From positions 3,794,749 to 3,858,748 of the forward strand of contig NZ_KQ033919.1 of NCBI RefSeq assembly GCF_000969825.1: 64,000 bases of DNA, given 5' to 3'. The notes beneath the pieces were generated by a model. The model worked only from the letters and a program-made list of their open reading frames with translations, had not been told where the DNA came from and did not search any database. Position 1 is the first letter of the stretch; each line of letters starts with the position of its first letter. The stretch is from Parabacteroides gordonii MS-1 = DSM 23371 (GTDB lineage Bacteria; Bacteroidota; Bacteroidia; Bacteroidales; Tannerellaceae). Positions 883 to 19,089 of this stretch are shown here, one piece after another. Both the position numbers and the translations under genes were made by a program.

Positions 883-949
883 CTTACTCCGTACTTTCCC
901 TGCCGGTAACTCCGGTGGGGAGTCAACGGTAAGGAATGTGCGGAGTAAG
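883..949. repeat. Imperfect inverted repeat between HU-like gene and susC
   Basis: The arms begin CTTACTCCG (from 883) and end CGGAGTAAG (to 949). They continue inward for about 20 bp with a few mismatches and contain a smaller ACTCC/GGAGT pair in the loop. No T-run follows, so it is not a standard intrinsic terminator. It could be a cruciform, a processing site, or a leader hairpin of the susC transcript. Confidence 0.6.
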
Positions 950-1005
950 TGCTAGGGAATCGATGGAGTATAAAATATATAATGTTTAACTTGAAGAATA
1001 ATATT

Positions 1006-4000
1006 ATGAAGTATCAACCTAATTTTAATTATCTCATAAAGTCGAGGTATATGTTGAAAATATGTTCGGCTTTTATGCTGACGGCATTCAGTGTCGTACC
1101 GGTTTTGGCTGAAGATTATCCCAATGTGGGAATCATGAAGCTTCAGCAATCAGAACAAAAAATTGCAGGAACCGTTGTTGATGCAAATAACGAACCTGTT
1201 ATTGGTGCAAATGTGTTGGTAAAAGGTACGACTAACGGAGTTATAACGGATATGGATGGAAAGTTTGCACTGACAGTTTCCCGGGGAGCGGTGTTGCAAA
1301 TATCTTATATCGGGTATATTACGCAGGAAATAAAAGTAACAAATAATACGACTTATACGATTCGTTTGGTTGAAGATTCGGAAACTTTGGAAGAAGTGGT
1401 TGTTGTCGGATATGGTACGATGAAAAAAAGAGATTTAACTGGTGCGGTTACTTCCGTTAAAATGGATGATGCTCCTGTTGGAACAATTTCGACCATTAGC
1501 CATGCTTTAGCAGGTAAAGCAGCCGGTTTGCAGGTTAACACTGTCAGTGCGCAACCTGGTGGTCAATCAACATTTCGTATCAGAGGTGCAGCTTCTTCGG
1601 ATAAAGCGGGAAATGATCCGCTGATTATTATCGATGGATTTCCTGTAAGTGATCCTGGCTCATTAGATAGCGGAAACCAATATTCGGATGGAAAGAAAGA
1701 TAATGTATTAGGTTCTATAAATCCCAATGACATTGAATCTATAGAGATATTGAAGGATGCAAGTTCAACAGCCATTTATGGAGCTCGTGCAGGAAATGGG
1801 GTTATCATTGTGACTACAAAGCGTGGAAAGAGCGGTGCCGCAAAAGTTCAATATTCAGGTTCTGCATCTGTACAAGAAATTGCAAAATCGTATGACGTGC
1901 TGGATGCGTCCGGTTTTATGAAGATACACAATCATTACAATAAGGAATTATGGATGTCTGCTAATGGTATTGGTATATATGGTGGAAAATCAGAAGCTGA
2001 GGCTTCTTCTCCTTTTGTTCCTAACTATACAGACGAACAGATTGCTAACCCGGAACATAACACTAATTGGTTTGATGAGATAACTCGTTTAGGTTTTCAA
2101 ACATCGCATAATATCTCTATAACAGGAGGAAATGATAATACAAAATATTTAGTTTCAGGCAACTATTTCAAACAGGATGGTGTGATCAAGAATAATGCCA
2201 TGGAACGTTATTCTGCCCGTGTCAATTTGGATCAGAAATTGAGTAAATATGTTAAGATGGGAGTGAATTTGAATGTGACGAGAAACTCTTATGACAATGT
2301 CTCTTTGGGGGATAACCAGGCTGGTAGTGCAGGTGTTTTGGTAACGGCTGTTCAATATAAGCCGACACTTCCTGTTCGAGATGAAAATGGAGATTATACT
2401 TTGAATCAAGATGTTGCTTATTTGCCGAATCCGGTGTCATTGTTGGACATAACCGATAAAACGACTAAGGAACGCTTGTTGGGAACGGTTTTCCTGGAAG
2501 TTCGTCCTATCCAAGATTTATTATTGAAAGCAAATTTCGGTATCGATAGAAATTATCAGAAACGTAGACAATATCTTCCTACTACGACTCTTTATGGTGC
2601 GAAGGAAAATGGTGCAGGATATATTGGCCAATCAGATAAATCAGATTATTTGATGGAGTTGACTGCCAATTACACAAAATCATTCGGAGACCATAACTTG
2701 AATGTTTTGGCCGGACACTCTTATCAATTATTTGATTCCGAGTTTCTTTCTGCTAAAAGTAATGATTTTATTACAGATGGTTTTTTATATAATAACTTAG
2801 GAGCAGGAAATGCAAAACGTCCTACTGTTGGTTCCAGTGCAACAAAATCGCGTATGGCTTCTTTCTTCGGACGTGTGAATTATTCGTTTAAAGATCGCTA
2901 TTTATTGACAGCTACGTTACGAGCAGATGGATCTTCGAATTTTGCGGAAGGGAATCGTTGGGGTATATTTCCTTCTGTAGCTGCTGGTTGGAGATTTTTG
3001 GAAGAAGACTTTATGCAGCCTTTGACTAATGTGTTATCAAATGGTAAATTGCGTTTAAGCTACGGTGAAACAGGTAATGCAAATGTTGGAGATAAAGCTT
3101 ATAGCTATTATAATGTTGGGTATAATAATATATTCGGCGGAAGTCAGATTAATGGTGTATATCTGAGCCAAATGGGTAATGCCGATCTGACCTGGGAGAC
3201 GACTCGTGAATGGAATGTCGGATTGGATTTCGGTTTCTTAGACGGACGCATTAATGTGACAGCAGAATATTATCACAAGGTTGTTTCTGATTTATTGAAC
3301 GAACATACTTTACTTTCATACAATGAGGTAAATAAAATTATAGCAAACGTAGGTAAGACGCAGAGTCAGGGCTTTGAACTAACGGTTAATACGACAAATG
3401 TGAAGAACAAAGAGTTCGAATGGACTTCAGACTTGACTTTCTCTTTGTATAGAGATAAATGGAAAGAAAGAGACCCGAATTGGAAACCAAGTTCTTGGGA
3501 TGAATACAATGGATATATGCGCTATTCTTCGGGTTATTTATCGGATGGTTTAGTACAACCCGGTGAAGAAATTGCCCATATGCCAGGGGCATTACCAGGT
3601 CAAGTAAAAATAAAGGATATAGATGGGTATGCCTATAATGCTGATGGTTCCATTAAAGTCGATAAACATGGTATTCCTTTGAAAACAGGAACGCCAGATG
3701 GCAAGTTGGATGATGCTGATAAAGTAATTTATGGTTCAAATGATCCGGGTTATTTATTAGGGTTTAATAATACATTCCGTTATAAGAACTTTGATTTGAA
3801 CGTTTATTTCTATGGACAGTTTAATAAATTAACCAGTGGTAGCTATAAAACAAAATGGCCGAGTGAATTTGTAAATGAGTTACGTAGAGGGTATAATCAG
3901 CCTACTTCTGTAAAGGATATTTGGAGTTCCACGAATCCGAATGGAAAGTTGCCTAGTTATTTCCAGATAGAGAGTGCATATGGAACAGGTGATTATTTTT

Positions 4001-4221
4001 ATGATAAGACTTGGTTTATTCGTTGTCGTAATATAACTCTTGGATATAATATACCAATGAAAAAGGAAAAACAAATTCTATCTAACGTTCGTGTTTACTT
4101 GGATGTCAATAATCCATTTGTGGTTACTCCTTATGATGGACTTGATCCAGAAACAGACGTAGATAATTATGCTTATCCTAATGTTCGTACTTATAGTTTA
4201 GGTTTGGATATTACATTTTAA
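1006..4221 (+). CDS. SusC/RagA-family TonB-linked outer-membrane transporter
   Basis: TonB-dependent porin that should import oligosaccharides across the outer membrane together with the SusD partner encoded 13 bp downstream. From the start used here it is 1071 residues. A hydrophobic signal segment lies near residues 15-36 and ends in PVLA. A carboxypeptidase-regulatory-like domain follows (IAGTVVDANNEPVIGANV, from about residue 52). Next come the SusC plug signature EEVVVVGYGTMKKRDLTGAV and the VTTKRGKSG motif, then a long beta-barrel ending in an aromatic residue. In-frame starts also exist at 949 (GTG) and 982 (ATG); 1006 gives the most usual signal peptide, but the N-terminus is uncertain. 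Base composition is clearly more AT-rich than the genes after 8.1 kb. No ECF sigma or anti-sigma gene is adjacent. Confidence 0.95.
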   Translation: MKYQPNFNYLIKSRYMLKICSAFMLTAFSVVPVLAEDYPNVGIMKLQQSEQKIAGTVVDANNEPVIGANVLVKGTTNGVITDMDGKFALTVSRGAVLQISYIGYITQEIKVTNNTTYTIRLVEDSETLEEVVVVGYGTMKKRDLTGAVTSVKMDDAPVGTISTISHALAGKAAGLQVNTVSAQPGGQSTFRIRGAASSDKAGNDPLIIIDGFPVSDPGSLDSGNQYSDGKKDNVLGSINPNDIESIEILKDASSTAIYGARAGNGVIIVTTKRGKSGAAKVQYSGSASVQEIAKSYDVLDASGFMKIHNHYNKELWMSANGIGIYGGKSEAEASSPFVPNYTDEQIANPEHNTNWFDEITRLGFQTSHNISITGGNDNTKYLVSGNYFKQDGVIKNNAMERYSARVNLDQKLSKYVKMGVNLNVTRNSYDNVSLGDNQAGSAGVLVTAVQYKPTLPVRDENGDYTLNQDVAYLPNPVSLLDITDKTTKERLLGTVFLEVRPIQDLLLKANFGIDRNYQKRRQYLPTTTLYGAKENGAGYIGQSDKSDYLMELTANYTKSFGDHNLNVLAGHSYQLFDSEFLSAKSNDFITDGFLYNNLGAGNAKRPTVGSSATKSRMASFFGRVNYSFKDRYLLTATLRADGSSNFAEGNRWGIFPSVAAGWRFLEEDFMQPLTNVLSNGKLRLSYGETGNANVGDKAYSYYNVGYNNIFGGSQINGVYLSQMGNADLTWETTREWNVGLDFGFLDGRINVTAEYYHKVVSDLLNEHTLLSYNEVNKIIANVGKTQSQGFELTVNTTNVKNKEFEWTSDLTFSLYRDKWKERDPNWKPSSWDEYNGYMRYSSGYLSDGLVQPGEEIAHMPGALPGQVKIKDIDGYAYNADGSIKVDKHGIPLKTGTPDGKLDDADKVIYGSNDPGYLLGFNNTFRYKNFDLNVYFYGQFNKLTSGSYKTKWPSEFVNELRRGYNQPTSVKDIWSSTNPNGKLPSYFQIESAYGTGDYFYDKTWFIRCRNITLGYNIPMKKEKQILSNVRVYLDVNNPFVVTPYDGLDPETDVDNYAYPNVRTYSLGLDITF

Positions 4222-4234
4222 TAATAATTGAATT

Positions 4235-5704
4235 ATGAAAAAAATAATATATGTATTGTTGAGTTTTTATTTCGTATCATGTACGAATTTGGATTCAGAA
4301 AGATATGATACTATTAATCCCGGTTTTTTCCCAAACACGGAAAAGGATGCAGATGCTTTGATTACTGCTAGTGTTTATGCACCGTTCCGAAATTCGGATT
4401 ATAATGGAATATTTAATTGTGCAAGTGGTATTCAAATTATAGGTGATATGACTACTGATTTAGCAGTATGTTGTTGGATAAATGATGCTTGGACTCCTTT
4501 AACACATCATAATTGGACTGCAAATCATTCTTATACAACAACGCAATATACGAATTATGTGAAATTCTTGGGGACAATGACATTAACTCAGGAGCGCATT
4601 GCTAATGTGACAATGAGTGATGAGGCAAGGAGCCGGATGAATGCGGAGATTCACATGGGACGTGGTTGGTTGGCATTTCTATTATACGATTTCTATGGAC
4701 CTGTTCCTATCCCGACCTTGGAACAATTAAATAATCCGTTAGCCGAAGGAATCATACCTCGAGCCACACAGGGTGAAATGACAGCATTTATTGAAACGGA
4801 ATTGAAAGCTGCATTGGAAGGCTTGCCTGTCCGCACTTCTTCTTTCGGTCGTTTTGATAAAGGCCTTGCCTATACGGTCCTGATGAAGTTTTATATGCAT
4901 GAAAAGAGTTGGGAAAAAGCAATAGAGTGTGGACGTGAATTGATAAAACCGGAATATAAATATGGTTTGATGGATTCGTATGCTTCTATTTTTACGTTGG
5001 AGAATGAGCAGAATGAGGAAATTATTTATGCTTGTACAGAAGAAAGAGGAACTCAATTGGAATTATGGCATGATCATTGCTTACCTGGTAATTATCCATT
5101 AAAGAACAACTCAATTCAACGTTGGGACGGTTTTAAAGTTCCCTGGAAATTTTACCATACATTTGATAAAAACGATGATAGGCTATCTGTCTTAATAGGA
5201 GAATATGAAGGAAGTGACGGTGTATTATTTAATGAAGAGACAGATATTGCTAAACGTGGTGATGTTTATTCAGGTGCTGTTCCTGTAAAATATGGGGAAG
5301 ATCCTGAGTCTACTGGGGATGGAAGCCAAATAGATTGGATTGTATATCGTTATGCAGATGTGTTGACATTGTTGTCCGAAGCTATTGTTCGTAACAGTAA
5401 TGTTGTAACACAAGAAGCAGTTGATTTGTTGAATCAAGTTCGTATGCGTGCCAAATTAAAGGCATATACAATGGGGGATATAAAAGGAGTTGAAGATTTT
5501 TTGGATAAGGTGTTGGAAGAAAGAGGGCATGAATTCTGGTGGGAAGGTGTTCGACGTTCAGATTTGATCCGTCATGGTAAATTTATTCAGGGTGCAATAG
5601 ACCGTGGATCGACAACGACAAAGCCTGAATTTGTATTATTTCCGTTGCCTCAAGCTGTGATAAATGAGGGAAAGGGTATTATTATTCAGAATCCCGGATA
5701 TTAA
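4235..5704 (+). CDS. SusD/RagB-family surface glycan-binding lipoprotein
   Basis: Partner lipoprotein of the SusC transporter, expected on the cell surface where it captures glycan for import. It is 489 residues. The N-terminus is a lipoprotein signal with lipobox FVSC (Cys at about 16). The C-terminal part carries the typical RagB/SusD pattern, with a VLEERGHEFWWEGVRRSDL stretch and a terminal segment built around FPLPQAVINEGKGIIIQNPGY-like residues. It starts 13 bp after the susC stop, so the two are co-transcribed. The glycan cannot be read from SusD, but the GH89 enzyme that follows suggests alpha-linked GlcNAc structures. Confidence 0.95.
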   Translation: MKKIIYVLLSFYFVSCTNLDSERYDTINPGFFPNTEKDADALITASVYAPFRNSDYNGIFNCASGIQIIGDMTTDLAVCCWINDAWTPLTHHNWTANHSYTTTQYTNYVKFLGTMTLTQERIANVTMSDEARSRMNAEIHMGRGWLAFLLYDFYGPVPIPTLEQLNNPLAEGIIPRATQGEMTAFIETELKAALEGLPVRTSSFGRFDKGLAYTVLMKFYMHEKSWEKAIECGRELIKPEYKYGLMDSYASIFTLENEQNEEIIYACTEERGTQLELWHDHCLPGNYPLKNNSIQRWDGFKVPWKFYHTFDKNDDRLSVLIGEYEGSDGVLFNEETDIAKRGDVYSGAVPVKYGEDPESTGDGSQIDWIVYRYADVLTLLSEAIVRNSNVVTQEAVDLLNQVRMRAKLKAYTMGDIKGVEDFLDKVLEERGHEFWWEGVRRSDLIRHGKFIQGAIDRGSTTTKPEFVLFPLPQAVINEGKGIIIQNPGY

Positions 5705-5730
5705 TATAATAAAATAACGTTTTTAAGGTA

Positions 5731-5776
5731 AAAAGGCTGTATTTTTGGCTGTGAAGGTCTAAAATTTCAGCCTTTT
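5731..5776 (+). terminator. Hairpin between susD and GH89 gene
   Basis: AAAAGGCTG at 5731-5739 pairs with CAGCCTTTT at 5768-5776, with a long loop. The A-rich 5' side and T-rich 3' side would allow partial termination or transcript stabilisation after susC-susD. It is weak evidence for a full terminator. Confidence 0.4.
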
Positions 5777-5813
5777 ATCAGATTATGAGTTGAATTATTA
5801 ATTGTAATTGCAT

Positions 5814-7964
5814 ATGAAATGTGTTATTCTAAGAAAAGTTTTTTTTGTTTTTGTATATGTGTCGTGTGTTTGGTGTGTGAATGCCACATCTCCAATAGAA
5901 GGTTTGTTGGAACGTATTGACAAAGGTGCATCGCGTAAGTTCATCATAGAGCGGGAGAATTCATTGACAGACTTTTTTGAACTTGATCAAAAAGGCGACA
6001 AAGTTGTTGTCCGTGGAAACAATTATGTAAGTATTGCTACAGGTATTAACTGGTATTTGAAATATTATGCTGGTATTCATCTTTCTTGGAATGGGATGAC
6101 AGCAGAATTGCCATCAACATTACCTCCTGTATTACAAAAGGAACGCCATGAAACAACGATGCAGTATCGTTATGATTTAAACTATTGTACCTATTCCTAT
6201 ACGATGGCTTTCTGGGATTGGGAACGTTGGCAAAAGGAAATAGATTGGATGGCGTTGCATGGTATCAATTTGCCTTTGGCTATTACCGGAACCGATGTGG
6301 TATGGTTTAATGTGCTGAAAAGGTTAGGATATACTAAAGAAGAGATAAACGAGTATATAGCAGGTCCAGGCTTTCAGGCATGGTGGTTGATGAATAATCT
6401 GGAAGGTTGGGGCGGACCGAATCCGGATAGTTGGTACATACAGCAAGCCGATTTGCAGAAAAAGATCTTGAAACGGATGCGCGAGTTTGGAATAGAGCCT
6501 GTTTTACCTGGTTATTCAGGCATGGTTCCGCATAATGCAAAAGAGAAACTGGGATTGGATGTCAAGCCCGGCTTATGGTGTTCTTATAATCGTCCAGCCT
6601 TTTTGTTGCCGACAGATCCTAGGTTTGGAGAAATCGCTTCCATTTATTATGAAGAGATGGATAAATTGTATGGTAAATCCAATTATTACAGCATGGATCC
6701 TTTCCACGAAGGAAGTGCTGAAGGTGTCGATTTGCCTGCTGCGGGACATGCTGTTATGAATCAGATGAAAAAGAATAACCCGGATGCAAAATGGGTTGTG
6801 ATGGCATGGGGAAATAACCCTCACTCCCAAATGATAAAAGGTTTGAAAAAAGGAGACTTGTTGGTGCTTGACCTGTTTTCGGAAAGTACACCGCAATGGG
6901 GTGATCCGGATTACAAAAATGGCAGAAAGAATGGACTTGATGGACATGACTGGTTATATTGTATGCTTCTCAATTTTGGAGGTAACGTTGGTTTGCATGG
7001 TAAAATGGCACATGTTATAAATAGTTTTTATAAAGCAAAATCTCATCCTACCTTTGGGAAAGACTTGAAAGGTGTCGGGTTGACGATGGAGGGGAGTGAG
7101 AACAATCCTGTCATGTTTGAGTTGTTGACAGAACTCCCCTGGCGGAATGAAAGGTTTGATAAAGACGCTTGGTTGGATAATTATACGATTGCTCGTTATG
7201 GGAAAGACTGCAAAGAAATTAAGCAGGCTTGGCGTATTTTATCAAATTCCATTTATAATGCTCCGGCAGCTTCCAGTCAACAGGGAACACATGAGTCTAT
7301 TTTTTGTGCGCGGCCTTCTTTAAAAGCTTATCAAGTATCGACATGGTCCTATATGAAAGATTATTATGACCCGAATGAAGTGATCAAGGCGGCCGAATTG
7401 ATGTTATCTGTTGCTGATCAATTTAAAGGGAATAATAATTTTGAATATGATTTGGTTGATATCGTTCGCCAGGCAATTGCCGAAAAAGGACGTTTACTGC
7501 TAAAAGTTGTCCGAGCCGCCCACGAAGCGGGGGAAAAGGATTTGTACAGAAGTCTTTCAAAACGTTTTTTGGATATGATTTTGTTGCAAGATGAGTTACT
7601 AAGTACACGATCTGAATTCAAGGTAGGTAATTGGATTGCACAGGCTCGTAATATAGGCAATACACAGGCTGAGAAAGATTTGTATGAATGGAATGCACGT
7701 GTGCAAATAACAACTTGGGGTAATCGTGCAGCTGCAGAAAAAGGTGGACTGTGGGATTATGCTCATCGGGAATGGAATGGTTTGTTGAAAGATGTGTACT
7801 ATGTACGCTGGAAAGCTTTTTTTGAAAAGGGAGAAAATGAGAAAGTTGATTACTATGTGTTAGATGAGGCTTGGACGAAAAAAACAAATTTCTATAGTGC
7901 ATCTTCTTCTGATGACTGTGTGGAAGTAGTAAAGAAGGTTTTTGAGATTGTTTTTAGGAATTGA
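5814..7964 (+). CDS. GH89 alpha-N-acetylglucosaminidase, secreted
   Basis: Family GH89 (NAGLU-like) exo-enzyme that removes terminal alpha-linked GlcNAc, known from heparan sulfate breakdown and from alpha-1,4-GlcNAc-capped mucin O-glycans. It is 716 residues, close to the family length. A hydrophobic signal segment covers residues 1-24. By analogy with human NAGLU (E316, E446), the catalytic residues are Glu299 in MDPFHEGS and Glu426 in LTMEGSEN. The ATG at 5814 is preferred over an in-frame TTG at 5808. The gene follows susC-susD on the same strand and shares their AT-rich composition, so it is probably the hydrolytic arm of a small polysaccharide-utilisation locus. Residues are placed by motif comparison; substrate choice is inferred. 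Confidence 0.92.
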   Translation: MKCVILRKVFFVFVYVSCVWCVNATSPIEGLLERIDKGASRKFIIERENSLTDFFELDQKGDKVVVRGNNYVSIATGINWYLKYYAGIHLSWNGMTAELPSTLPPVLQKERHETTMQYRYDLNYCTYSYTMAFWDWERWQKEIDWMALHGINLPLAITGTDVVWFNVLKRLGYTKEEINEYIAGPGFQAWWLMNNLEGWGGPNPDSWYIQQADLQKKILKRMREFGIEPVLPGYSGMVPHNAKEKLGLDVKPGLWCSYNRPAFLLPTDPRFGEIASIYYEEMDKLYGKSNYYSMDPFHEGSAEGVDLPAAGHAVMNQMKKNNPDAKWVVMAWGNNPHSQMIKGLKKGDLLVLDLFSESTPQWGDPDYKNGRKNGLDGHDWLYCMLLNFGGNVGLHGKMAHVINSFYKAKSHPTFGKDLKGVGLTMEGSENNPVMFELLTELPWRNERFDKDAWLDNYTIARYGKDCKEIKQAWRILSNSIYNAPAASSQQGTHESIFCARPSLKAYQVSTWSYMKDYYDPNEVIKAAELMLSVADQFKGNNNFEYDLVDIVRQAIAEKGRLLLKVVRAAHEAGEKDLYRSLSKRFLDMILLQDELLSTRSEFKVGNWIAQARNIGNTQAEKDLYEWNARVQITTWGNRAAAEKGGLWDYAHREWNGLLKDVYYVRWKAFFEKGENEKVDYYVLDEAWTKKTNFYSASSSDDCVEVVKKVFEIVFRN

Positions 7965-8043
7965 TTGTATCATATTAAGGAGATACAATAATAGTCCACA
8001 AAATAAGCAATAATTTGCTATTTTTTATCGGTAGGGGAGCCTT

Positions 8044-8051
8044 TATATTTG
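8044..8051 (+). promoter_or_regulatory. Bacteroidota -7 box for the beta-helix/corrinoid operon
   Basis: TATATTTG matches the TAnnTTTG consensus 45 bp before the start codon at 8096. No convincing -33 box is spaced at 18-21 bp. The short predicted leader leaves no room for a cobalamin riboswitch. Confidence 0.6.
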
Positions 8052-8095
8052 CATCATACTTACAGTACGATGTACAATAAAGTGATTGAAATACC

Positions 8096-9985
8096 ATGAA
8101 AAGAAAACAACTATTATTTACACTACTCTTGTTGTGTTGCGCGGTAGTACAGGCAAAAGAATACCATGTCTCCGTAAAAGGTAATGATATGAATGAAGGA
8201 ACGGAAAAGGCTCCCTTCCGGACTATCGGAAAAGCTGCGGAATATGCTTTCCCGGGAGACGTGATTACCGTGCATGGAGGAACGTACCGGGAATGGGTGA
8301 ATCCACCCCGGGGAGGCGAAAGCGATAAGAAACGCATTATCTACCGCGCAGCGCCAGGAGAAAAGGTCGAGATAAAAGGCTCGGAAAGAATTACCAACTG
8401 GACGAAAGAGAAAAACGGTGTCTGGAAAGTAACGATACCGAACACCTTCTTCGGAAATTATAATCCCTACGTAGATCTGATCTATGGAGATTGGTTTAGT
8501 GATATGGGACGCAAGCATCATACCGGAGAGGTATTCCTTAATAACAAGTCCCTTTATGAAAAGGAAACCTTGGATAAGGTGCTGACTCCTGTCGTGCACG
8601 AAAATAGCCGGGATAAGGAAGGGTCTGTCTACACCTGGTATTGCGAGAACGACGGTATAAATACCACTATCTTCGCCAATTTCCATAAATACGATCCCAA
8701 TAAAGAACTAGTGGAAATAAGTACCCGCCCCACTTGTTTTTATCCGGAGAAACCGGGTATCGACTACCTGACTATCCAGGGCTTTGAAATCAGTCAGGCA
8801 GCTACCCAATGGGGAGCACCGACCGCCGAGCAAATCGGTATGGTGGCTACCCATTGGAATAAAGGCTGGATTATTGAGAACAACATCATCAGCAACTCAA
8901 AGTGTTCGGGTATCACCCTCGGAAAAGAACGTAAAACCGGGCATAATGTCTGGCTGAACGACACTACCCTCGACGGCTCACTACATTATATTGAAGTTAC
9001 TTTCAATACGATCCGCCACGGCTGGAACAAGGAGAACATTGGTTCGCATATTGTTCGTAACAATGAAATATCCCATTGCGAACAAACGGGTATCTGTGGA
9101 AGTATGGGAGCTGCTTTCAGCTTGATTGAAAACAATCATATCCATGATATCTGGGTAAAGCGCCAGTTTACCGGTGCCGAGATCGGAGGTATCAAGTTTC
9201 ATGCCGCTGTGGATACACGGATTATTCATAACCGTATCCACAATGCCGGTCGTGCCCTTTGGCTGGATTGGATGACGCAGGGTACGCGCGTCTCCTGTAA
9301 TTTATTCTATGATAATACTATGGAAGATCTGTTCCTGGAAGTTAATCACGGTCCGTTCCTGGTTGATAATAATATCTTTGCTTCCCGCCGGAGCATTCTC
9401 GAACAATCACAGGGAGGAGCTTATGTACACAATCTGATTGTCGGAGAGATCTACCGTTACGTGGAACATGGACGGTATACGCCTTATTTCCAGCCTCATT
9501 CGACGGAAGTAGCCGGTTTGTCCATCATCCCTGGAGGAGACGATCGTTACATCAATAACCTCTTTGCTACGGTTCTTCCTCTAAATGAAAAAGATAGTAA
9601 ACGGAAATACGGTCTGGCTGATTATAACGGGACTGTTTATCCGATGATGGTGGACGGAAATGTTTATTACAATGGCGCGTTACCTTTTGGAGGTGAAAAG
9701 AATAAAGTGGTTCTACTTGACTTCATTCCGAATGTGAAAGTCGATGAAACGGCTGATGGCGTTTATCTTTCTTTTTCCGTGAAAGGTCTGGAAGGTTTGC
9801 AAACTTCCAGAGTGACAACCGAAAGGCTGGGGAAAGCAAAACTTCCACGCCAGACCTTCGACCAACCGGACGGAAGCCCGATTGATATTGCTACCGACTA
9901 TCTGGGCAATGCACGTGGAAATCAACCTAAACCCGGGCCGTTGGAATCTATCCGCGACGGAGAGGTCAGGATTAAAGTATGGTAA
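8096..9985 (+). CDS. Secreted right-handed parallel beta-helix protein, putative carbohydrate-active enzyme
   Basis: A 629-residue protein with a clear signal peptide (hydrophobic residues 6-18, likely cleavage after VVQA). The N-terminal part (KEYHVSVKGNDMNEGT, PFRTIGKAAEYAFPGD) is the DUF1565-type opening of many beta-helix glycosidases and lyases. Repeated short strand patterns with Asn ladders (IIENNIISNS, IVRNNEISHCE, LIENNHIHDIW) run over residues about 250-450. The family is not certain; a GH141-like enzyme is one possibility. It lies 18 bp before the first methyltransferase gene on the same strand with its own promoter, so it heads that operon. This is an unusual pairing of an exported enzyme with a cytoplasmic corrinoid system. 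It could expose or release the methylated substrate, but that is inference. Confidence 0.8.
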   Translation: MKRKQLLFTLLLLCCAVVQAKEYHVSVKGNDMNEGTEKAPFRTIGKAAEYAFPGDVITVHGGTYREWVNPPRGGESDKKRIIYRAAPGEKVEIKGSERITNWTKEKNGVWKVTIPNTFFGNYNPYVDLIYGDWFSDMGRKHHTGEVFLNNKSLYEKETLDKVLTPVVHENSRDKEGSVYTWYCENDGINTTIFANFHKYDPNKELVEISTRPTCFYPEKPGIDYLTIQGFEISQAATQWGAPTAEQIGMVATHWNKGWIIENNIISNSKCSGITLGKERKTGHNVWLNDTTLDGSLHYIEVTFNTIRHGWNKENIGSHIVRNNEISHCEQTGICGSMGAAFSLIENNHIHDIWVKRQFTGAEIGGIKFHAAVDTRIIHNRIHNAGRALWLDWMTQGTRVSCNLFYDNTMEDLFLEVNHGPFLVDNNIFASRRSILEQSQGGAYVHNLIVGEIYRYVEHGRYTPYFQPHSTEVAGLSIIPGGDDRYINNLFATVLPLNEKDSKRKYGLADYNGTVYPMMVDGNVYYNGALPFGGEKNKVVLLDFIPNVKVDETADGVYLSFSVKGLEGLQTSRVTTERLGKAKLPRQTFDQPDGSPIDIATDYLGNARGNQPKPGPLESIRDGEVRIKVW

Positions 9986-10003
9986 TTTTAAATATATATT
10001 GAT

Positions 10004-11260
10004 ATGACATCCAGAGAGCGCGTACAAAGCGCATTAAACCATAAGGCTCCCGACTATATACCTGTTGACTTCGGAGCCACATCCGTCACTGGCATTCATT
10101 GCAAGGTCGTGGAAGCATTAAGACAACATTACGGGCTGGACGCCCATCCCGTCCGTATTATCGAACCCTTTCAGATGCTGGGCGAGATAGAAGATGATTT
10201 GCAGGAAGTGATGGGAATAGACTGCGTCCCTGTTTTCGGACGTAAAAATATGTTCGATATCGACGAAACCCAACTGCATGAGCAGATTACCCCCTGGGGA
10301 CAGAAGGTTATGATCGCCACCGGTATCGACCTGACGACAGATAAGGAGGGAGATGTCTATATTTATGCCGGTGGCGACCGTTCCTATCCTCCCAGTGCCG
10401 TGATGCCTTCCGATTGCTATTTTATCAATGCGACGGAAAGACAGGAATATGTGAATGACGACGAAATCACTCCGGAGGATAATCTGGAAGAGTTCGGTCT
10501 TATTTCGGAGGAAGACCTGCAATATTATAAGACGGCTGTAGGCCGGGCCGCTTCAACAGGAAAAGCCGTTGTTGCCAGTTTCGGAGGAACTGCATTAGGG
10601 GATATCGCCTTTGTCCCCGGCATGGGATTGAAGAACCCGAAAGGTATCCGTAATGTTGCCGAGTGGTATATGTCGACCGCCATGCGCCGTGACTATGTGC
10701 AGACTGTATTTGAAAAACAAACCGACATAGCAATAGCAAACTATCAGCGGTTGTGGGATACGGTTGGAGACAAGGTTGATGTTGTTTTTACCTGTGGTAC
10801 TGACTTCGGAACTCAGGATTCCCAATTCTGTTCGCTGGATACCTTCAGGGAACTGTGGCTTCCCCATTATAAGCGGATGAATGACTGGATACATCAGCAT
10901 ACTAATTGGAAAGTATTCAAACATTCCTGCGGGGCTATTATGCCGATCCTTCCCGGCTTGGTGGAAGCAGGCTTCGACATTATCAACCCGGTACAGATCA
11001 ATGCAAAGGATATGGATCCGGCGGTTTTGAAAAGAGAATATGGCAGCCGGGTTACTTTCTGGGGTGGGGGAATCGATACTCAGCGTATTTTACCGAATGC
11101 AACCCCTGAAGAAGTTAGGAGCCATGTTTTGCAGGAATGTGAAATATTGGGTGCAAACGGAGGTTTTATATTCAACGCCGTCCACAATATCCAGGCCAAT
11201 GCACCTGTACGAAATGTGGTGGCTATGATCGAAACCTTACGCGAAATACGGAACATATAA
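10004..11260 (+). CDS. URO-D-family methyltransferase, candidate substrate:corrinoid methyltransferase
   Basis: A 418-residue cytoplasmic protein of the uroporphyrinogen-decarboxylase-like superfamily. It opens with MTSRERVQSALNHKAPDYIP, a pattern typical of members that act as corrinoid-dependent methyltransferases rather than haem enzymes. A VFKHSCG motif supplies His and Cys zinc-ligand candidates, followed by WGGGIDTQ and NAVHNIQ near the C-terminus. It sits directly before the corrinoid-protein gene (18-bp gap). As the larger of two URO-D proteins in the operon it is the better candidate for demethylating the substrate, in the way URO-D-type MtvB works in three-component O-demethylases. 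The substrate cannot be read from sequence. A true HemE role is unlikely given the operon. Confidence 0.85.
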   Translation: MTSRERVQSALNHKAPDYIPVDFGATSVTGIHCKVVEALRQHYGLDAHPVRIIEPFQMLGEIEDDLQEVMGIDCVPVFGRKNMFDIDETQLHEQITPWGQKVMIATGIDLTTDKEGDVYIYAGGDRSYPPSAVMPSDCYFINATERQEYVNDDEITPEDNLEEFGLISEEDLQYYKTAVGRAASTGKAVVASFGGTALGDIAFVPGMGLKNPKGIRNVAEWYMSTAMRRDYVQTVFEKQTDIAIANYQRLWDTVGDKVDVVFTCGTDFGTQDSQFCSLDTFRELWLPHYKRMNDWIHQHTNWKVFKHSCGAIMPILPGLVEAGFDIINPVQINAKDMDPAVLKREYGSRVTFWGGGIDTQRILPNATPEEVRSHVLQECEILGANGGFIFNAVHNIQANAPVRNVVAMIETLREIRNI

Positions 11261-11278
11261 TTTATACAGAATAAAGTT

Positions 11279-11914
11279 ATGGCAGATTTAGAGAGTTTAT
11301 ATGAAGCTATTTTGAAAGGTAAACTGGAAGTAGCCAAAACGGTGACAACCGAGGCGATTGCGGAGAATGTGGATCCGCATCTGATCATCAACGACTATAT
11401 GTCGCGGGCAATGGAAGATATAGGTAAACGTTTTGAGGAAGGAAAAGCCTTTGTCCCTGAACTATTAATGGCAGCCCGTGCCATGAAAGGAGCACTCGAC
11501 CTGCTGAAGCCGCTGATGAAAGGAGCTGCTTCCCATTGCTTGGGTAAGGTGGTGATAGGAACGGTAAAGGGGGATTTGCATGATATCGGTAAGAACCTGG
11601 TAGCTTCCATGTTGGAAGGTTGTGGTTTTGAGGTGATCAACTTGGGGACGGATATCTCTTCGGAAAAGTTTATAGCGGCGATCAGGGAAAACCAGGCGCA
11701 GATCCTTTGCCTTTCCGCCTTGCTGACAACGACAATGAATTATATGCAGGAGGTTATCAATGCTCTCGAAACAACCGGTATCCGTCAGCAAGTGAAAGTG
11801 ATGATTGGAGGAGCACCTGTATCGGAGTCGTTTGCTCACCAGATCGGAGCGGATGGCTATAGTGATAATGCGAATGCTGCTGTGACATTGGCAAAATCGT
11901 TGTTATCAGCTTGA
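11279..11914 (+). CDS. Corrinoid (cobalamin-binding) methyl-carrier protein, MtaC/MtvC-like
   Basis: A 211-residue methyl carrier. Residues 1-85 form the helical B12-binding cap and residues about 90-211 the Rossmann-like cobalamin domain. The signature GDLHDIGKN places the lower-ligand His at residue 101. Further B12-domain landmarks are GFEVINLG, LSALLTTTM and VMIGGAPV. It accepts a methyl group from the first methyltransferase on Co(I) and donates it to the second. It is flanked on both sides by methyltransferase-system genes with gaps of 18 and 4 bp, so co-translation at similar levels is likely. Assignment to the family is firm; the substrate is unknown. Confidence 0.95.
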   Translation: MADLESLYEAILKGKLEVAKTVTTEAIAENVDPHLIINDYMSRAMEDIGKRFEEGKAFVPELLMAARAMKGALDLLKPLMKGAASHCLGKVVIGTVKGDLHDIGKNLVASMLEGCGFEVINLGTDISSEKFIAAIRENQAQILCLSALLTTTMNYMQEVINALETTGIRQQVKVMIGGAPVSESFAHQIGADGYSDNANAAVTLAKSLLSA

Positions 11915-11918
11915 TACT

Positions 11919-12596
11919 ATGCTTGATTGTAAATTGGATTTTAGTACGTTATCCCTGACAGCAGACGATTTGCTTGCTGAAATGGGATACGGAAACACTG
12001 CTCCGGAAGAACCTGTGGAAGCATTGACTGTTTCCATGTTGGAAGAGGTTTCTTCCTGGATTGTTCCGCGTTGTTTTTTCAGCTTATTTGAAGGTACGGT
12101 TGATGCCGGAGTTGTATCTCTCGCTTGCGGTCAGACTATCCCTGTGGGAGATACGATCGCTTCCCTGCTGAAAGGATCCAGACGTTTTGCCCTTTTTGCG
12201 GCTACGGCGGGAACGGTTTTTCAGGAATACCAGGATCGTCTGAAGGAGGAAGGAGATATTCTGAAATGTTTCATCGCAGATATTATCGGAACATGTGTAG
12301 CAGAAAAAGCCGGCGATTATATGGAACGTCTGCTAGAGGAAGAGTTGAAAGGTGAGCGGCATACGAACCGCCTGAGTCCCGGCTATTGTGGCTGGCACCT
12401 GACGGGGCAGAAAGCCTTGTTCCGGCTGATGGGCGGAAATCCCTGCGGCATCAGCCTGTCGGATGTTTGCCTTATGACCCCGATCAAATCGATCAGCGGA
12501 ATAATCGGTATCGGCCCGGAAGTCGATGTGAAAAAATACGGTTGCCAGTATTGTGAACTGGAAACCTGCTATAAACGAAAAAGAAAGAAGAGTTAA
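11919..12596 (+). CDS. Stand-alone MetH-activation-domain-like protein, candidate corrinoid reactivase
   Basis: A 225-residue protein resembling the C-terminal activation domain of cobalamin-dependent methionine synthase. The RLSPGYCGW stretch corresponds to the SAM-binding R-x-x-PGY motif of MetH. A Cys-rich C-terminus (YGCQYCELETC) may bind a metal or cluster. In MetH this domain uses SAM to re-methylate cobalamin that has slipped to Co(II). Here it is encoded separately between the corrinoid protein and the second methyltransferase, 4 bp after the former and overlapping the latter by one base (TAATG). It probably repairs the oxidised corrinoid protein. The usual iron-sulfur reactivase of anaerobic O-demethylases is not present in the window. 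Confidence 0.85.
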   Translation: MLDCKLDFSTLSLTADDLLAEMGYGNTAPEEPVEALTVSMLEEVSSWIVPRCFFSLFEGTVDAGVVSLACGQTIPVGDTIASLLKGSRRFALFAATAGTVFQEYQDRLKEEGDILKCFIADIIGTCVAEKAGDYMERLLEEELKGERHTNRLSPGYCGWHLTGQKALFRLMGGNPCGISLSDVCLMTPIKSISGIIGIGPEVDVKKYGCQYCELETCYKRKRKKS

Positions 12597-13600
12597 TGGA
12601 AATACAAAAATGGCTACAGGAAACAATCGGGCAGAATGAGCGTAGGGCTATCCCTATCATGACTCATCCCGGTATTGAGCTTTGTGGAAAGACAGTAAAA
12701 GAAGCCGTCACCAGCGGTACGGTACATGCAGAAGCTATTTGCCGGCTGAATGAGTTATATCCCGCGGCCGCTCCGACCGTGATCATGGATCTGACAGTGG
12801 AAGCCGAAGCTTTTGGTGCGAAAGTGGTATTCCCCGAAGATGAAGTCCCCAGCGTGACGGAACCGTTGGTATCGGATAAAGAATCGATCGACAATTTGCA
12901 GATACCTTCTCTGGATAGTGCGCGTATTCCTGAATATCTGAAGGCAAACCGACTGACAGCGGAACGTATCAACGACAAACCGGTCTTTGCCGGTTGTATC
13001 GGGCCGTTTTCACTGGCCGGACGCTTGTTCGGTTTATCGGAGCTGATGATTGCCCTTTATGTAGAACCCGAGAATATAACAATTCTATTAGATAAATGTA
13101 CCCGCTTCCTGATCGACTATTGTCGTGCGATCAAAGCAACCAGCGTTCACGGAGTAATTATGGCGGAACCGGCAGCGGGGCTGATCTCGAACGAAGACTC
13201 TATACTTTATTCGACAACCTATGTCCGTCAGGTCGTGGAAGCCGTGCAGGATGAGAACTTCATTGTGATCTTACATAATTGCGGGAATGCCGGTCATTGT
13301 ACGGATGCTATGGTTCAGTCGCGGGCAGCCGGCCTTCATTTCGGTAATAAGATCAATATGATGGATGCGCTGGCAGATTGCCCGACAGATCGTTTGGTGA
13401 TGGGTAACCTGGATCCTGTCGGTCTTTTTAAACAATCATTTTCGGAAGAAGTGTATGCTGCAACGATGGATCTGTTACAGCAAACCAAGTCATGGAAAAA
13501 TTTCATTCTGTCGACAGGCTGTGATGTACCGCCCCATATTCCGGCAGAGAATATAAAAAGCTTTTATCAGGCACTTAGTGATTTTAACCGATCAATGTAA
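12596..13600 (+). CDS. MtaA/MtbA-like URO-D methyltransferase, candidate methylcorrinoid:acceptor methyltransferase
   Basis: A 334-residue protein of the methylcobamide methyltransferase branch of the URO-D superfamily. The zinc site is recognisable as His227 and Cys229 in ILHNCGN plus Cys309 in LSTGCDVP, the H-x-C-xn-C arrangement of MtaA/MtbA. It should move the methyl group from the corrinoid protein onto a thiol or folate acceptor. Methanogen relatives use coenzyme M, which Bacteroidota are not known to make, so tetrahydrofolate or another acceptor is more likely; this is inference. The start overlaps the previous stop (TAATG), a sign of translational coupling. It is the last gene of the operon, and a bidirectional terminator follows at once. 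Confidence 0.88.
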   Translation: MEIQKWLQETIGQNERRAIPIMTHPGIELCGKTVKEAVTSGTVHAEAICRLNELYPAAAPTVIMDLTVEAEAFGAKVVFPEDEVPSVTEPLVSDKESIDNLQIPSLDSARIPEYLKANRLTAERINDKPVFAGCIGPFSLAGRLFGLSELMIALYVEPENITILLDKCTRFLIDYCRAIKATSVHGVIMAEPAAGLISNEDSILYSTTYVRQVVEAVQDENFIVILHNCGNAGHCTDAMVQSRAAGLHFGNKINMMDALADCPTDRLVMGNLDPVGLFKQSFSEEVYAATMDLLQQTKSWKNFILSTGCDVPPHIPAENIKSFYQALSDFNRSM

Positions 13601-13606
13601 AAAAGA

Positions 13607-13640
13607 AAGCCCTGTGTAAAGTTGTACTTACACAGGGCTT
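13607..13640. terminator. Bidirectional intrinsic terminator between convergent operons
   Basis: AAGCCCTGTGTAA (13607-13619) and TTACACAGGGCTT (13628-13640) form a perfect 13-bp stem with A/T-rich flanks. It separates the methyltransferase operon from the convergent glnN gene. Confidence 0.9.
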
Positions 13641-13657
13641 GTTATTTATAGTCTTTA

Positions 13658-15847
13658 TTACCGGATGAACAGCAACTCTCTGTATTTCGGCAATGGCCAC
13701 ATCTGGTTATCCACCATCAACTCCAGTTCGTCGATATGTTCGCGGATCTCATCCAGGAACGGAACAACCGTGTCGTGATAAGCGATCGCCTTGCTGCGGT
13801 AGTCGGTTATGACATTTGCCTTCTTGCGGGCTTCGATCATTTCGTCTGTCATGCGTGTTACGGCATTTACATGTTTGGAGATCTTACGTACCAGACGGCG
13901 CGGTTCGGCTGACAGTTCCTCGTATTCTTCCGGACTGAATGTTTCTTTCAGTTTGGTGATATTGCTGAGCAGTAAAGACTGGTAATGCAATACGACCGGA
14001 ATAATATGGTTCATGGATAAGTCTCCCAATACACGGGCTTCGATCTGTACTTTCTTGATATAGATCTCCCATTTCACCTCGTTACGTGCTTCCAGCTCCT
14101 TTTCATTCAAAACACCGGTTTCCTTGAACATACGGATCACTTCCGGTTTCAGGTAAGCATCGTATTGCAACGGAACGCTGTTTTCACAATCCAATCCACG
14201 GCGGGCAGCTTCTTTTTTCCACTCGTCGCAGTAGCCGTTACCGTCGAAACGGATAGGTTTAGACTCTTTTATGTATGCTTTCAATGTTTCGAAGATGGCA
14301 ACTTCTTTGCTCTTTCCTGCAGCCTGAAGTGCTTCTACATCTTTTTTGAACTGTTGCAACTGATGGGCTACAGCCGAGTTGACAGCCAGCATAGCCGATC
14401 CGCAGTTAACGGATGAACCCGGGGCACGGAACTCGAAACGGTTTCCGGTGAAAGCGAAAGGAGAGGTACGGTTACGGTCGGTATTATCCAGCAGCAGTTC
14501 GGGGATCTGTCCGAAGCCCAGGCTCAGACGCTTCTTGTCGTCCACCTCGATGGCATCTTCGATCGAACTGTTTTCGAACTTATCCAGTACTTCGCTGATC
14601 TGCGTTCCCAGGAAAGATGAGATAATTGCCGGAGGTGCTTCGTTGGCACCCAGGCGATGTGCGTTGGTTGCAGAAGCGATACTGGCTTTCAGCAGCGCAT
14701 TGTATTTATATACAGCCATCAGCGTATTCACAACGAAGGTGATGAAACGCAGGTTGTCTTCGCGGTCTTTACCCGGCGAGAACAGGTTGATACCCGTATC
14801 GGTTCCCATCGACCAGTTACAATGCTTACCCGAACCATTCACACCCATAAAAGGTTTTTCGTGAAGCAGTACGCGGAAGTTATGACGGCGTGAAACACGT
14901 TTCATGACCGACATCAGCAACTGGTTATGGTCGTTGGCCAGATTACATTCCTCATAGATGGGAGCCAACTCGAACTGGTTGGGAGCAACCTCATTATGAC
15001 GTGTCTTAACCGGGATACCCAGCTTATAACATTCCACTTCCAGGTCTTTCATAAATTCCTGTACGCGGGAAGGGATGGCACCGAAATAATGGTCGTCCAA
15101 CTGCTGGTTCTTGGCACTTTCGTGTCCCAGCAAGGTACGTTCCGTCAGTGACAGGTCGGGACGGGCGGAATACAATTCTTCGTCAACCAGGAAATACTCC
15201 TGTTCCCAACCCAGATAAGTGATTACTTTATGAACATCTTCGTTGAAGTAGTTGCAAACATCTTTTGCCGCCTTGTTCAGAGCCTCTACTGAACGGATCA
15301 GCGGAGTTTTGTAGTCGAGTGCCTCACCGGTATAAGCGATAAAGACAGTCGGGATACACAGTGTGTCGTCTACAACAAATGCGGGGGAGGAAGGATCCCA
15401 GGCAGAATATCCGCGGGCTTCGAACGTGTTGCGCAGTCCGCCGTTGGGGAAGCTGGAAGCATCCGGTTCCTGTTGGGCGAGCAGCTTGCCACTGAATTCT
15501 TCGATCATACCGCCATTGCCGTCGTGTTCTACAAAAGCGTCGTGCTTTTCGGCTGTTCCGTCGGTAAGAGGCTGGAACCAGTGTGTGTAATGAGTTACTC
15601 CTTTTTCCAGTGCCCACATACGCATACCGGCTGCCACATGATTGGCTATTTCGCGGTCGATAGGTGTTCCATTATCAATAGAGTGGGTCAGGGCTTTGTA
15701 CGTTTCCTTGGAGAGATACTTCTTCATTGCCTTACGGTTAAATACGTTCTCGCCATAGTACTCTGATACTTTCTGATTGGGAGTGACGGCTTCTACGGCC
15801 TTACGGTTGGAAGCTTTCTCCACTGCATTAAAGCGTGAGATTGACAT
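13658..15847 (-). CDS. glnN: Type III glutamine synthetase
   Basis: Makes glutamine from glutamate, ammonia and ATP; the type III enzyme is the large form found in Bacteroidota. From the start used here it is 729 residues, the usual GSIII length. GSIII landmarks include the N-terminal FNRKAMKKYLS region, HWFQPLTDGTAEKHDAF, VNGSGKHCNWSMGT near the middle and NRTSPFAFTGNRFEFRAPGS. The ATG at 15847 (MSISRFNAVEK) is preferred to in-frame upstream codons because the -7 box at 15875-15882 lies between them. It is monocistronic and converges on the methyltransferase operon. Confidence 0.95.
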   Translation of the reverse strand: MSISRFNAVEKASNRKAVEAVTPNQKVSEYYGENVFNRKAMKKYLSKETYKALTHSIDNGTPIDREIANHVAAGMRMWALEKGVTHYTHWFQPLTDGTAEKHDAFVEHDGNGGMIEEFSGKLLAQQEPDASSFPNGGLRNTFEARGYSAWDPSSPAFVVDDTLCIPTVFIAYTGEALDYKTPLIRSVEALNKAAKDVCNYFNEDVHKVITYLGWEQEYFLVDEELYSARPDLSLTERTLLGHESAKNQQLDDHYFGAIPSRVQEFMKDLEVECYKLGIPVKTRHNEVAPNQFELAPIYEECNLANDHNQLLMSVMKRVSRRHNFRVLLHEKPFMGVNGSGKHCNWSMGTDTGINLFSPGKDREDNLRFITFVVNTLMAVYKYNALLKASIASATNAHRLGANEAPPAIISSFLGTQISEVLDKFENSSIEDAIEVDDKKRLSLGFGQIPELLLDNTDRNRTSPFAFTGNRFEFRAPGSSVNCGSAMLAVNSAVAHQLQQFKKDVEALQAAGKSKEVAIFETLKAYIKESKPIRFDGNGYCDEWKKEAARRGLDCENSVPLQYDAYLKPEVIRMFKETGVLNEKELEARNEVKWEIYIKKVQIEARVLGDLSMNHIIPVVLHYQSLLLSNITKLKETFSPEEYEELSAEPRRLVRKISKHVNAVTRMTDEMIEARKKANVITDYRSKAIAYHDTVVPFLDEIREHIDELELMVDNQMWPLPKYRELLFIR

Positions 15848-15874
15848 ACGGATTATTTTTTTGTTTACCGACCG

Positions 15875-15882
15875 CAAAGATA
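15875..15882 (-). promoter_or_regulatory. -7 box of glnN
   Basis: CAAAGATA on the plus strand reads TATCTTTG on the minus strand, matching TAnnTTTG. It lies 28 bp upstream of the glnN start chosen here. No well-spaced -33 box is evident. Confidence 0.6.
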
Positions 15883-15992
15883 CGAGCAAATCTTTATTTA
15901 TGCTTTCAATGGGTAGTTAAAAACAAAAAAGTCCGCTGACTTTGGATGAGCTCGATTTTTCCTTTTTTAGTGTAGTATGTTAGAACAACCTT

Positions 15993-16319
15993 TCAGTTGA
16001 ACATACTGTCAAAGAAATCTTCGTCCGTATTATCGAGGAAAGTGACCCAATATTGATGTGTCATCCGATCGAAATAATGCAGTGCCCCGTTATTACAAAG
16101 GATATAGAGGGTATCGCCGGCTTTTAATGTCCCATAAATAGTGGTTAGTGGCATGACGAGGACAGGAGTTCCATCTTCCATAAATACCAGGCAACCATTC
16201 AAAAAAGCAAATTCCCATTCTTCGCAGATGGAGTAAAGTAAAGCGGCGATATCGCAGGGACATTGTCTCGGGATGCGGTCGGCGATGTGGCGAAGTTGTA
16301 CTAGTGTTTTCTTTTTCAT
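15993..16319 (-). CDS. Hypothetical protein, 108 residues
   Basis: I do not recognise this protein. It is 108 residues with no signal peptide or clear membrane helix. It contains a CPCDIAALLYSICEEW stretch in the first third, several beta-like segments, and an acidic C-terminus (DNTDEDFFDSMFN). The start codon has a GTAGGAT sequence a few bases upstream. It lies immediately downstream of the candidate structured RNA at 16361-16575 on the same strand, so it may be expressed by read-through from that promoter. Base composition is ordinary for the region. It could be a small cytoplasmic regulator or housekeeping protein of Bacteroidales; nothing firmer can be said. Confidence 0.6.
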   Translation of the reverse strand: MKKKTLVQLRHIADRIPRQCPCDIAALLYSICEEWEFAFLNGCLVFMEDGTPVLVMPLTTIYGTLKAGDTLYILCNNGALHYFDRMTHQYWVTFLDNTDEDFFDSMFN

Positions 16320-16360
16320 ATCCTACTGAGTTTTAAGTCTGATATGTTCCGCAACCGCAC

Positions 16361-16575: not shown

Positions 16576-16580
16576 GACAG

Positions 16581-19084: not shown

Positions 19085-19089
19085 ATAAG

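Follow-up and report, generated by a model that had tools for sequence, protein, structure and literature searches.

What is a set of corrinoid methyl-transfer genes doing directly behind genes for glycan uptake and cleavage? The question is raised by a 64,000-nt stretch of the Parabacteroides gordonii MS-1 = DSM 23371 genome (contig NZ_KQ033919.1, positions 3,794,749 to 3,858,748 of the forward strand), hereafter called the window, whose own positions are used as coordinates. Four consecutive genes encode a UROD-fold methyltransferase (MT1), a small corrinoid protein (CorP), an activation protein (Act), and a second UROD methyltransferase (MT2), and they follow a gene for a glycoside hydrolase (GH) of family GH120. 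It is nearly certain that the system carries out corrinoid methyl transfer, and the methyl donor is probably a methyl ether of a sugar. For the full proposal, a corrinoid O-demethylation module linked to a glycan locus that would pass sugar methyl groups to homocysteine, the sequence evidence tips the balance slightly in favor. The first-pass annotation had described a complete corrinoid methyl-transfer operon tied to glycan use. By homology, donor, carrier, acceptor, and activator functions are indeed encoded together and the link to glycans is strong, but the acceptor proposed there, tetrahydrofolate (THF), finds no support. The features of the locus are as follows.

949..4221, + strand: SusC-type TonB-dependent outer-membrane transporter (TIGR04056 919 bits, over the cut-off; the true start codon may be later)
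4235..5704, + strand: SusD-type glycan-binding protein (PF07980 and PF14322 over the cut-off)
5808..7964, + strand: GH89 alpha-N-acetylglucosaminidase (NAGLU; three NAGLU domains over the cut-off)
8044..8051, + strand: candidate promoter -7 box TATATTTG (pattern match only)
8096..9985, + strand: GH120 glycoside hydrolase, beta-helix (PF21258; 3vst)
10004..11260, + strand: MT1, UROD-fold methyltransferase, proposed O-methyl-sugar:corrinoid methyltransferase (URO-D in the C-terminal half, alignment, model)
11279..11914, + strand: CorP, corrinoid methyl-carrier protein with His101 as cobalt ligand (PF02607 and PF02310 over the cut-off; match to the corrinoid protein 1y80, E 4.5e-51)
11919..12596, + strand: Act, MetH-type activation protein, S-adenosylmethionine (AdoMet)-binding (PF02965; Foldseek matches to methionine synthase)
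12596..13600, + strand: MT2, MtaA-like UROD methyltransferase, proposed methylcorrinoid:thiol (homocysteine) methyltransferase (URO-D 180.7 bits; profile match to 4ay7, E 4e-39)

The proteins of the cassette

The last five genes are collinear with gaps of 18, 18, 4, and -1 bp, exactly as first reported, and their Pfam families follow in the order GH120 insertion and Beta_helix, URO-D, B12-binding_2 and B12-binding, Met_synt_B12, and URO-D. No signal peptide was seen by eye on MT1, CorP, Act, or MT2. MT1 (418 aa) would be the donor enzyme. Pfam URO-D covers only its C-terminal half. Searching the PDB with the single protein (E 0.001) or with the profile (E 0.01) brought up no direct relative, and matches allowed up to E 10 are weak. 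The structural model (predicted local distance difference test, pLDDT, 93.5) has the URO-D/MtaA fold, with 4ay8 as the best match (E 9.2e-12, TM-score 0.55 by query). URO-D, MtaA, and MetE stand on top of the structure comparisons, with Z up to 23.6 against URO-D and 21.6 against MtaA, and root-mean-square deviations of 3.3-4.2 over 297-318 residues. His307, Cys309, and His394 are invariant in an alignment of 47 sequences. In the profile alignment they sit opposite His227, Cys229, and Cys309 of MT2, which suggests a His-x-Cys...His site for the donor enzyme and a His-x-Cys...Cys site for the acceptor enzyme; binding of a metal by MT1 is plausible from this arrangement. The three MT2 residues lie at the positions first claimed for them and do not vary across 20 aligned proteins of the MT2 type. 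Among solved structures, MtaA (4ay7) is the closest to MT2 by profile; MT2 falls below the curated MtaA/CmuA cut-off (TIGR01463, 128.1 bits vs 235.4) and has the His-x-Cys...Cys site of this subfamily, a putative metal site.

The carrier and its activator are the better defined pair by family. His101 of CorP, named earlier as the cobalt ligand, is confirmed within the motif DLHDIG at 99-104. Act combines PF02965 similarity with the MetH activation fold and so belongs to the MetH-type activation proteins: its model (pLDDT 87.6) gave 19 Foldseek matches at E <=0.001, all of them methionine synthase (best 1j6r, E 1.2e-10), and the SPGY motif is kept. The protein ends in a cysteine tail, C209-x2-C212-x4-C217 (12543-12569), found in the 19 genuine members of alignment A2 and invariant in the 15-row alignment A9. 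The tail falls in the low-confidence part of the model; at a guess, it could be a metal or iron-sulfur site. The activator of known O-demethylases, RACo (PF14574), has no match anywhere in the P. gordonii genome (99.92% complete) and was rejected on that account, and PF02965 is matched only by MetH and two Act proteins. Act, with its conserved C-x2-C-x4-C tail, is the likely activator of CorP.

The hydrolase preceding the cassette had been called an exported beta-helix protein. The beta-helix is confirmed, and the family can now be named as GH120, xylosidase-like: PF21258 scores 132.9 bits against a cut-off of 27, next to Beta_helix, and the xylosidase 3vst matches nearly end to end (query 22-629, E 2.9e-172). 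In the alignment with 3vst, Asp391 and Glu415 fall on Asp382 and Glu405, which we take to be the catalytic pair of that enzyme; Asp391 and Glu415 are invariant among five aligned GH120 proteins from corrinoid loci. The N-terminus, MKRKQLLFTLLLLCCAVVQA, was judged by eye to be a signal peptide. The protein is thus a predicted secreted xylosidase-like glycoside hydrolase.

The operon had also been described as headed by this beta-helix gene. The five genes do share one strand, but the genes for SusC, SusD, and GH89, which had been left out, lie directly upstream on the same strand, and therefore the five genes appear to form the end of a polysaccharide-utilisation locus. The start given earlier, 8044, coincides with a lone Bacteroidales-like -7 box. 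A search of positions 1-16000 with the Bacteroidales promoter pattern found no -7 box with a spaced -33 box, and -7 boxes of this kind occur eight times on the + strand of these 16 kb; a promoter at 8044 is therefore weakly supported, and a clean promoter before the GH120 gene was rejected, the lone box being all that matched. No cobalamin riboswitch or other Rfam element reached the gathering thresholds in positions 1-20000.

A recurrent cassette among sugar genes

A pattern-based scan of a named genome collection gave 60 MT1 loci, some of them short stretches; those nearest to the window MT1 are from P. goldsteinii and P. faecis (88-89% identity). The order MT1-CorP-Act-MT2 on one strand recurs at 16 of the 60 (L030-L038, L040-L042, L053, L078, L084, L085) in Parabacteroides, Bacteroides, Alistipes, and rumen Bacteroidales, near-copies such as those of two B. 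fragilis strains included. The GH120 gene, which had been expected to stay beside the methyltransferase genes, does so in part. Among 38 genomes of the same genus, MT1 was matched at E 1e-5 in ten and with at least 68% identity in four, and GH120 is a direct neighbor in three of the latter (G000, G037, and, in the order Act-MT1-CorP-GH120, G008), G012 being without it; but it stands beside MT1 or the cassette at just four of the 60 named loci (the cassettes L031, L032, and L033, and MT1 in L043). GH120 is optional, with other sugar genes in its stead elsewhere, and the conserved unit is the four-gene cassette. GH120 as an obligatory part was rejected: P. goldsteinii (L030) is without it in the examined stretch, and among the 16 named cassette loci it is missing from 13.

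The sugar genes around the cassette vary from locus to locus. In the B. fragilis type (L034), the cassette is surrounded by GH26, GH5, GH3, GH130, MFS_2, and a GlcNAc-2-epimerase family protein, and the same gene clusters are present in L035-L037 and L078. In the rumen locus L040, an MFS transporter lies 3' of the cassette, with the same cluster in L041, L042, L053, and L085. The P. gordonii genome itself holds eight URO-D proteins. Seven of these are spread over three corrinoid loci, all with sugar genes as well. The eighth, a lone protein of 347 aa (C1:3787475-3788476), lies about 6 kb before the window, with no B12-binding match closer than about 18 kb. The second locus, L028 (C1:3716500-3736000), contains URO-D, CorP, URO-D, a GH95-like gene, a second GH120 (55-56% identical), an open reading frame (ORF) without Pfam match, and URO-D, and is flanked on either side by GH38-type genes. 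The Act profile has no match in L028; the ORF at L028:15179-15829, which had entered alignment A2 as a possible Act, was rejected for its 18% identity and lack of a profile match. The third, L029 (C1:2768500-2788000), reads SusC, SusD, CorP, MT2 (59%), Act, RhaT, and a relative of MT1 (33%), and a locus of this type is repeated in another genome (L119: Act, MT2 57%, CorP, GH29-like 28%, MT1 type 64%, RhaT 52%). The gene content of L029 and L119 points to sugars, and for L029 it suggests a methylated 6-deoxyhexose as the substrate.

MT1 relatives in other phyla often adjoin sugar genes as well. Outside the cassette set, 41 loci were considered, 38 of which have a usable MT1 ORF (the simple ORF caller may err in G+C-rich loci), and 131 of the 133 genes lying at most two positions from MT1 were scanned, the two longest being dropped. 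The families found were URO-D (18), B12-binding (8), GFO_IDH_MocA (7), Alpha_L_fucos (5), RACo, ABC_tran, and Peripla_BP_4 (4 each), Sugar_tr and AP_endonuc_2 (3 each), and DUF4432, 3keto-disac_hyd, BPD_transp_2, and Pterin_bind (2 each). As a control served 113 genes of the same loci more than 6 kb from MT1, where URO-D is the commonest family (7) and BPD_transp_2 and GH2 occur twice each; some of these genes are sugar-related too, which lessens the contrast. GFO_IDH_MocA, Alpha_L_fucos, Sugar_tr, AP_endonuc_2, B12-binding, and RACo, and likewise DUF4432 and the 3-keto-disaccharide hydrolase, are absent from the 25 commonest control families, while rarer families may include single members. 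A further 17 MT1 stretches from 16 genomes of an order sample (L142-L158, some on short contigs) were compared by BLAST with the already annotated set only. Eight of them (L142, L144-L148, L150, L151) have sugar-type genes within three ORFs of MT1, namely GH29, hexokinase, GFO_IDH_MocA, 3-keto-disaccharide hydrolase, SusCD, and Sugar_tr. L146 alone among the 17 holds other genes of the corrinoid system (Act, CobW, URO-D). It is also worth noticing that L043 has the order GH120-MT1-GH29-hexokinase (GH29, MT1, and hexokinase at 1824-5826) and L147 homologues in the order hexokinase-GH29-MT1 (5834-9907). A fucosidase-family enzyme is an odd companion for a hexokinase, and the pair may be a clue to the true sugar.

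The association is also visible at the level of whole genomes. In a sample of 295 genomes of the order, MT1 is present in 17 (E 1e-60) and GH120 in 15, of which 14 pass the curated cut-off; the two are found together in nine genomes vs 0.86 expected (Fisher p 2.5e-9, or 2.6e-8 without P. gordonii). The control family GH89 (35 genomes) shares three genomes with MT1 vs 2.0 expected (p 0.33) and was rejected as a linked partner. GH67 (alpha-glucuronidase) shares five of its 12 genomes with strong matches (E <=1e-15, a cut chosen afterwards) vs 0.69 expected (p 2e-4). With GH67N matches to about 2e-5, nine of 55 genomes are shared vs 3.2 expected (p 0.001), the weak ones alone giving four vs 2.5 (p 0.22). 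As a side observation, the excess with strong GH67 matches hints at 4-O-methylglucuronate as one candidate substrate.

The same neighborhoods bear on a different donor. It might be proposed that the hydrolases cleave plant glycosides to yield methoxyphenols (lignans, flavonoids), and that MT1 demethylates the aryl methyl ether of these, as MtvB, VdmB, and OdmB do. The overall layout is alike (first methyltransferase, corrinoid protein, second methyltransferase, activator), the UROD superfamily is common to both, and GH3 and GH120 could work on glycosides. However, the neighbors are genes for poly- and monosaccharides (the GH26/GH130 mannan set, sugar transporters, hexokinase, epimerase), and the genome has neither a RACo match nor one to a separate THF-type methyltransferase. 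In a test against the clade MtvB/VdmB/OdmB/MtoB, CdmB was the sole solved relative to appear, with a weak profile match to MT1 (E 0.046 over just 53 residues); it is not in the best 50 rows of the structure comparison of MT1, which excludes nothing. An aromatic donor is unlikely on these grounds. The comparison with MtvABC and MtaABC drawn in the first-pass annotation calls for caution, given the lack of a RACo match and the slight similarity of MT1 to CdmB, a relative with solved structure from the O-demethylase branch.

The methyl acceptor

The acceptor is the second debatable issue, and homocysteine is the leading candidate, somewhat favored by four lines of sequence evidence: the family content of the genome, the site of MT2, the genes that replace MT2 elsewhere, and two fusion proteins. 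THF was rejected for P. gordonii. The pterin-binding family PF00809 is matched only by MetH and by one open frame of 306 aa, probably FolP by size and family, and no separate THF-type methyltransferase was matched. The site of MT2 is of the thiol type, His-x-Cys...Cys being the kind of site seen in thiol methyltransferases.

What takes the place of MT2 was followed in a survey of CorP loci (48 from the order sample, plus the named loci), of which the 69 with a called CorP ORF, 46 from the sample, were classed; a locus close to a complete MetH was not scored as homocysteine type, and L045 and L065 (homocysteine methyltransferase) and L053 and L084 (MT2) were left out, as no CorP ORF was called there. 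Window-type MT2 was found at 24 loci, homocysteine S-methyltransferase at 11, a THF-type enzyme at nine, neither at 25, and both at none. The probability of zero overlap by chance is 2.7e-5 for the 69 loci and 0.012 for the 46 sampled loci alone, values that ignore kinship between the loci. On the starred branches of the CorP tree, the MT2 label changes at least five times and the homocysteine label at least six times, so the acceptor module has apparently been swapped repeatedly. In L098 (6851-9904) and L099 (7441-10398), a homocysteine S-methyltransferase shares one chain, of 1017 and 985 aa, respectively, with a corrinoid domain and an unassigned domain at the N-terminus. The corrinoid domains are 60% (L098) and 56% (L099) identical to the window CorP and share with it a starred clade of 21 rows. 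From this substitution of modules, homocysteine would be the acceptor of MT2 as well. Free-standing relatives of the N-terminal domain occur at other corrinoid or MT1 loci (L116, L094, L061, L072, L067), and the fusion itself may be an all-in-one enzyme from methyl donor to methionine; L098 lies near GH31-like and MFS-like genes.

Two other readings of the acceptor step have to be weighed. Sugar O-demethylation might be right while the methyl group goes to a thiol other than homocysteine (sulfide, cysteine, or a small thiol) and is released in the form of a methylated sulfur compound. The His-x-Cys...Cys site would fit any thiol, but MT2 gives way to homocysteine methyltransferases at related CorP loci, and such enzymes also occur fused to close relatives of CorP, which makes this quite unlikely. 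The other reading is a function akin to that of the type 1 mlp gene clusters, which are linked to sulfur or selenium. MT2 does group with MtaA-like thiol methyltransferases, and type 1 mlp clusters, as far as the available text of PMC10418091 describes them, likewise pair UROD proteins with a corrinoid protein and have no THF methyltransferase. These clusters have a Ram/RACE activator, however, and the P. gordonii genome is without a RACo match; the window neighbors are glycan genes, and the main text of that paper contains no word starting with Bacteroid, glycos, or sugar. This reading is very unlikely.

The proposed pathway and its place among known systems

In the proposed pathway, SusCD would import a methylated glycan fragment, and GH89 and GH120 would trim it or release a methylated sugar or oligosaccharide. 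This would enter the cytoplasm, although no inner-membrane sugar transporter is present in the window cassette, and MT1 would transfer the ether methyl group to Co(I) of CorP. MT2 would then hand the methyl group of methyl-CorP on to a thiol; this is most likely homocysteine, so that methionine would be formed. Act would rescue Co(II) CorP with AdoMet, like the MetH activation domain. The demethylated sugar could enter ordinary sugar catabolism. We infer the direction of transfer, the substrate class, the acceptor, metal binding, and the roles of MT1 and MT2 from sequence. The wider claim, of a portable B12-dependent sugar-O-demethylation module that uses donor enzymes common to gut and environmental anaerobes of several phyla, carries methyl groups from glycan ethers to methionine, and relies on an AdoMet-using, Cys-tailed activator, is tentative and falls somewhat short of probable.

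Several observations weigh against the proposed pathway. His394 of MT1 also aligns with a histidine of URO-D, which makes the metal role of MT1 uncertain. CorP is present in the examined stretch of only 32 of the 60 named loci and beside MT1 in none of the 17 order-sample stretches, nine of which have no sugar-type neighbor by BLAST. The rumen loci of the L040 type have genes for a Zn peptidase, a PIG-L/glucosamine isomerase, and a PurL-like protein before the cassette and no sugar hydrolases. Among the 15 order-sample genomes with GH120, only that of P. gordonii has it within 10 kb of CorP (among the matches listed, by eye), and GH120 and MT1 are not adjacent in the eight other shared genomes; their co-occurrence may thus reflect lifestyle. 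The two Pterin_bind neighbors of MT1 outside the cassette loci suggest that THF may serve as acceptor in other genomes. No one sugar accounts for all the neighbors, whose contexts diverge (GH29 with hexokinase in L043 and L147, the mannan genes of the L034 type, GH67 co-occurrence, and the xylosidase-like GH120). Lastly, MtaB of the methanol type adjoins MT1 in L039 (793-2169) and lies one gene off in L065 (3756-5126), which would fit methanol or another simple donor from pectin or glycan esters, with the sugar neighbors reflecting co-regulation only; but MtaB is a separate family whose co-presence looks like two donors per locus, and neither MtaB nor pectin esterase is among the eight window genes scanned, so such a donor is highly improbable.

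Methyl ethers are present on sugars of dietary and microbial glycans. If the sugar O-demethylation pathway is correct, a corrinoid module in glycan loci would fill a gap in the anaerobic removal of such groups, give Bacteroidales a use for B12 in addition to MetH and methylmalonyl-CoA mutase, possibly provide a folate-independent source of methionine methyl groups, and tie vitamin B12 supply to glycan foraging. One example is 2-O-methylfucose of rhamnogalacturonan II, released by an enzyme of Bacteroides thetaiotaomicron (PMC12282258), and the main text of that paper has no word starting with "demethyl". Among the matches listed from openly licensed literature, no route removing sugar methyl ethers in oxygen-free guts and no anaerobic corrinoid demethylase acting on sugars was found; subscription journals lay largely outside this scope, which makes it weak evidence.

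Corrinoid three-component systems, MtaA-like enzymes, and GH120 are each already known, and the window system can be set against its closest counterparts. The GH120 protein resembles the xylosidase 3vst in its full-length match and Asp/Glu pair and differs in being tied to a corrinoid cassette. MT2 shares family and His-x-Cys...Cys site with the coenzyme M methyltransferases MtaA, MtbA, and MtsA, whereas its score lies well under their curated cut-off; to our knowledge, coenzyme M is not expected in Bacteroidales. CorP is like the cobalamin domain of MetH and Act like its activation domain, but the window proteins are separate, the donor is not methyl-THF, and the homocysteine step would be taken by an MtaA-like protein. 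With the type 1 mlp clusters of Kountz and Balskus (PMC10418091), the system has in common UROD methyltransferases, a corrinoid protein, an anaerobic host, and the lack of a clustered THF methyltransferase; those clusters, in the text available, encode Mlp2 and Mlp3 together with a Ram/RACE protein and have a link to sulfur or selenium, while the window system has a glycan context and no RACo match. The acetogen O-demethylases (MtvABC, Vdm, Odm) and CdmBCA, the latter assigned to the methoxyaromatic/haloalkane branch in the available text of PMC13222342, likewise use a UROD-fold donor methyltransferase, a small corrinoid carrier, a second methyltransferase, and a separate activator. The window system differs from them in a MetH-type activator in place of RACo, an MtaA-like thiol-type MT2 in place of a THF methyltransferase, and its setting in a glycan locus. 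The P450 6-O-methylgalactose demethylase of marine Flavobacteriia, as the available text of PMC10033563 presents it, also takes a methyl ether off a glycan-derived sugar and is encoded near CAZymes. It needs oxygen and yields formaldehyde, whereas the window system, if the proposal is correct, would be its anaerobic counterpart and would keep the methyl group.

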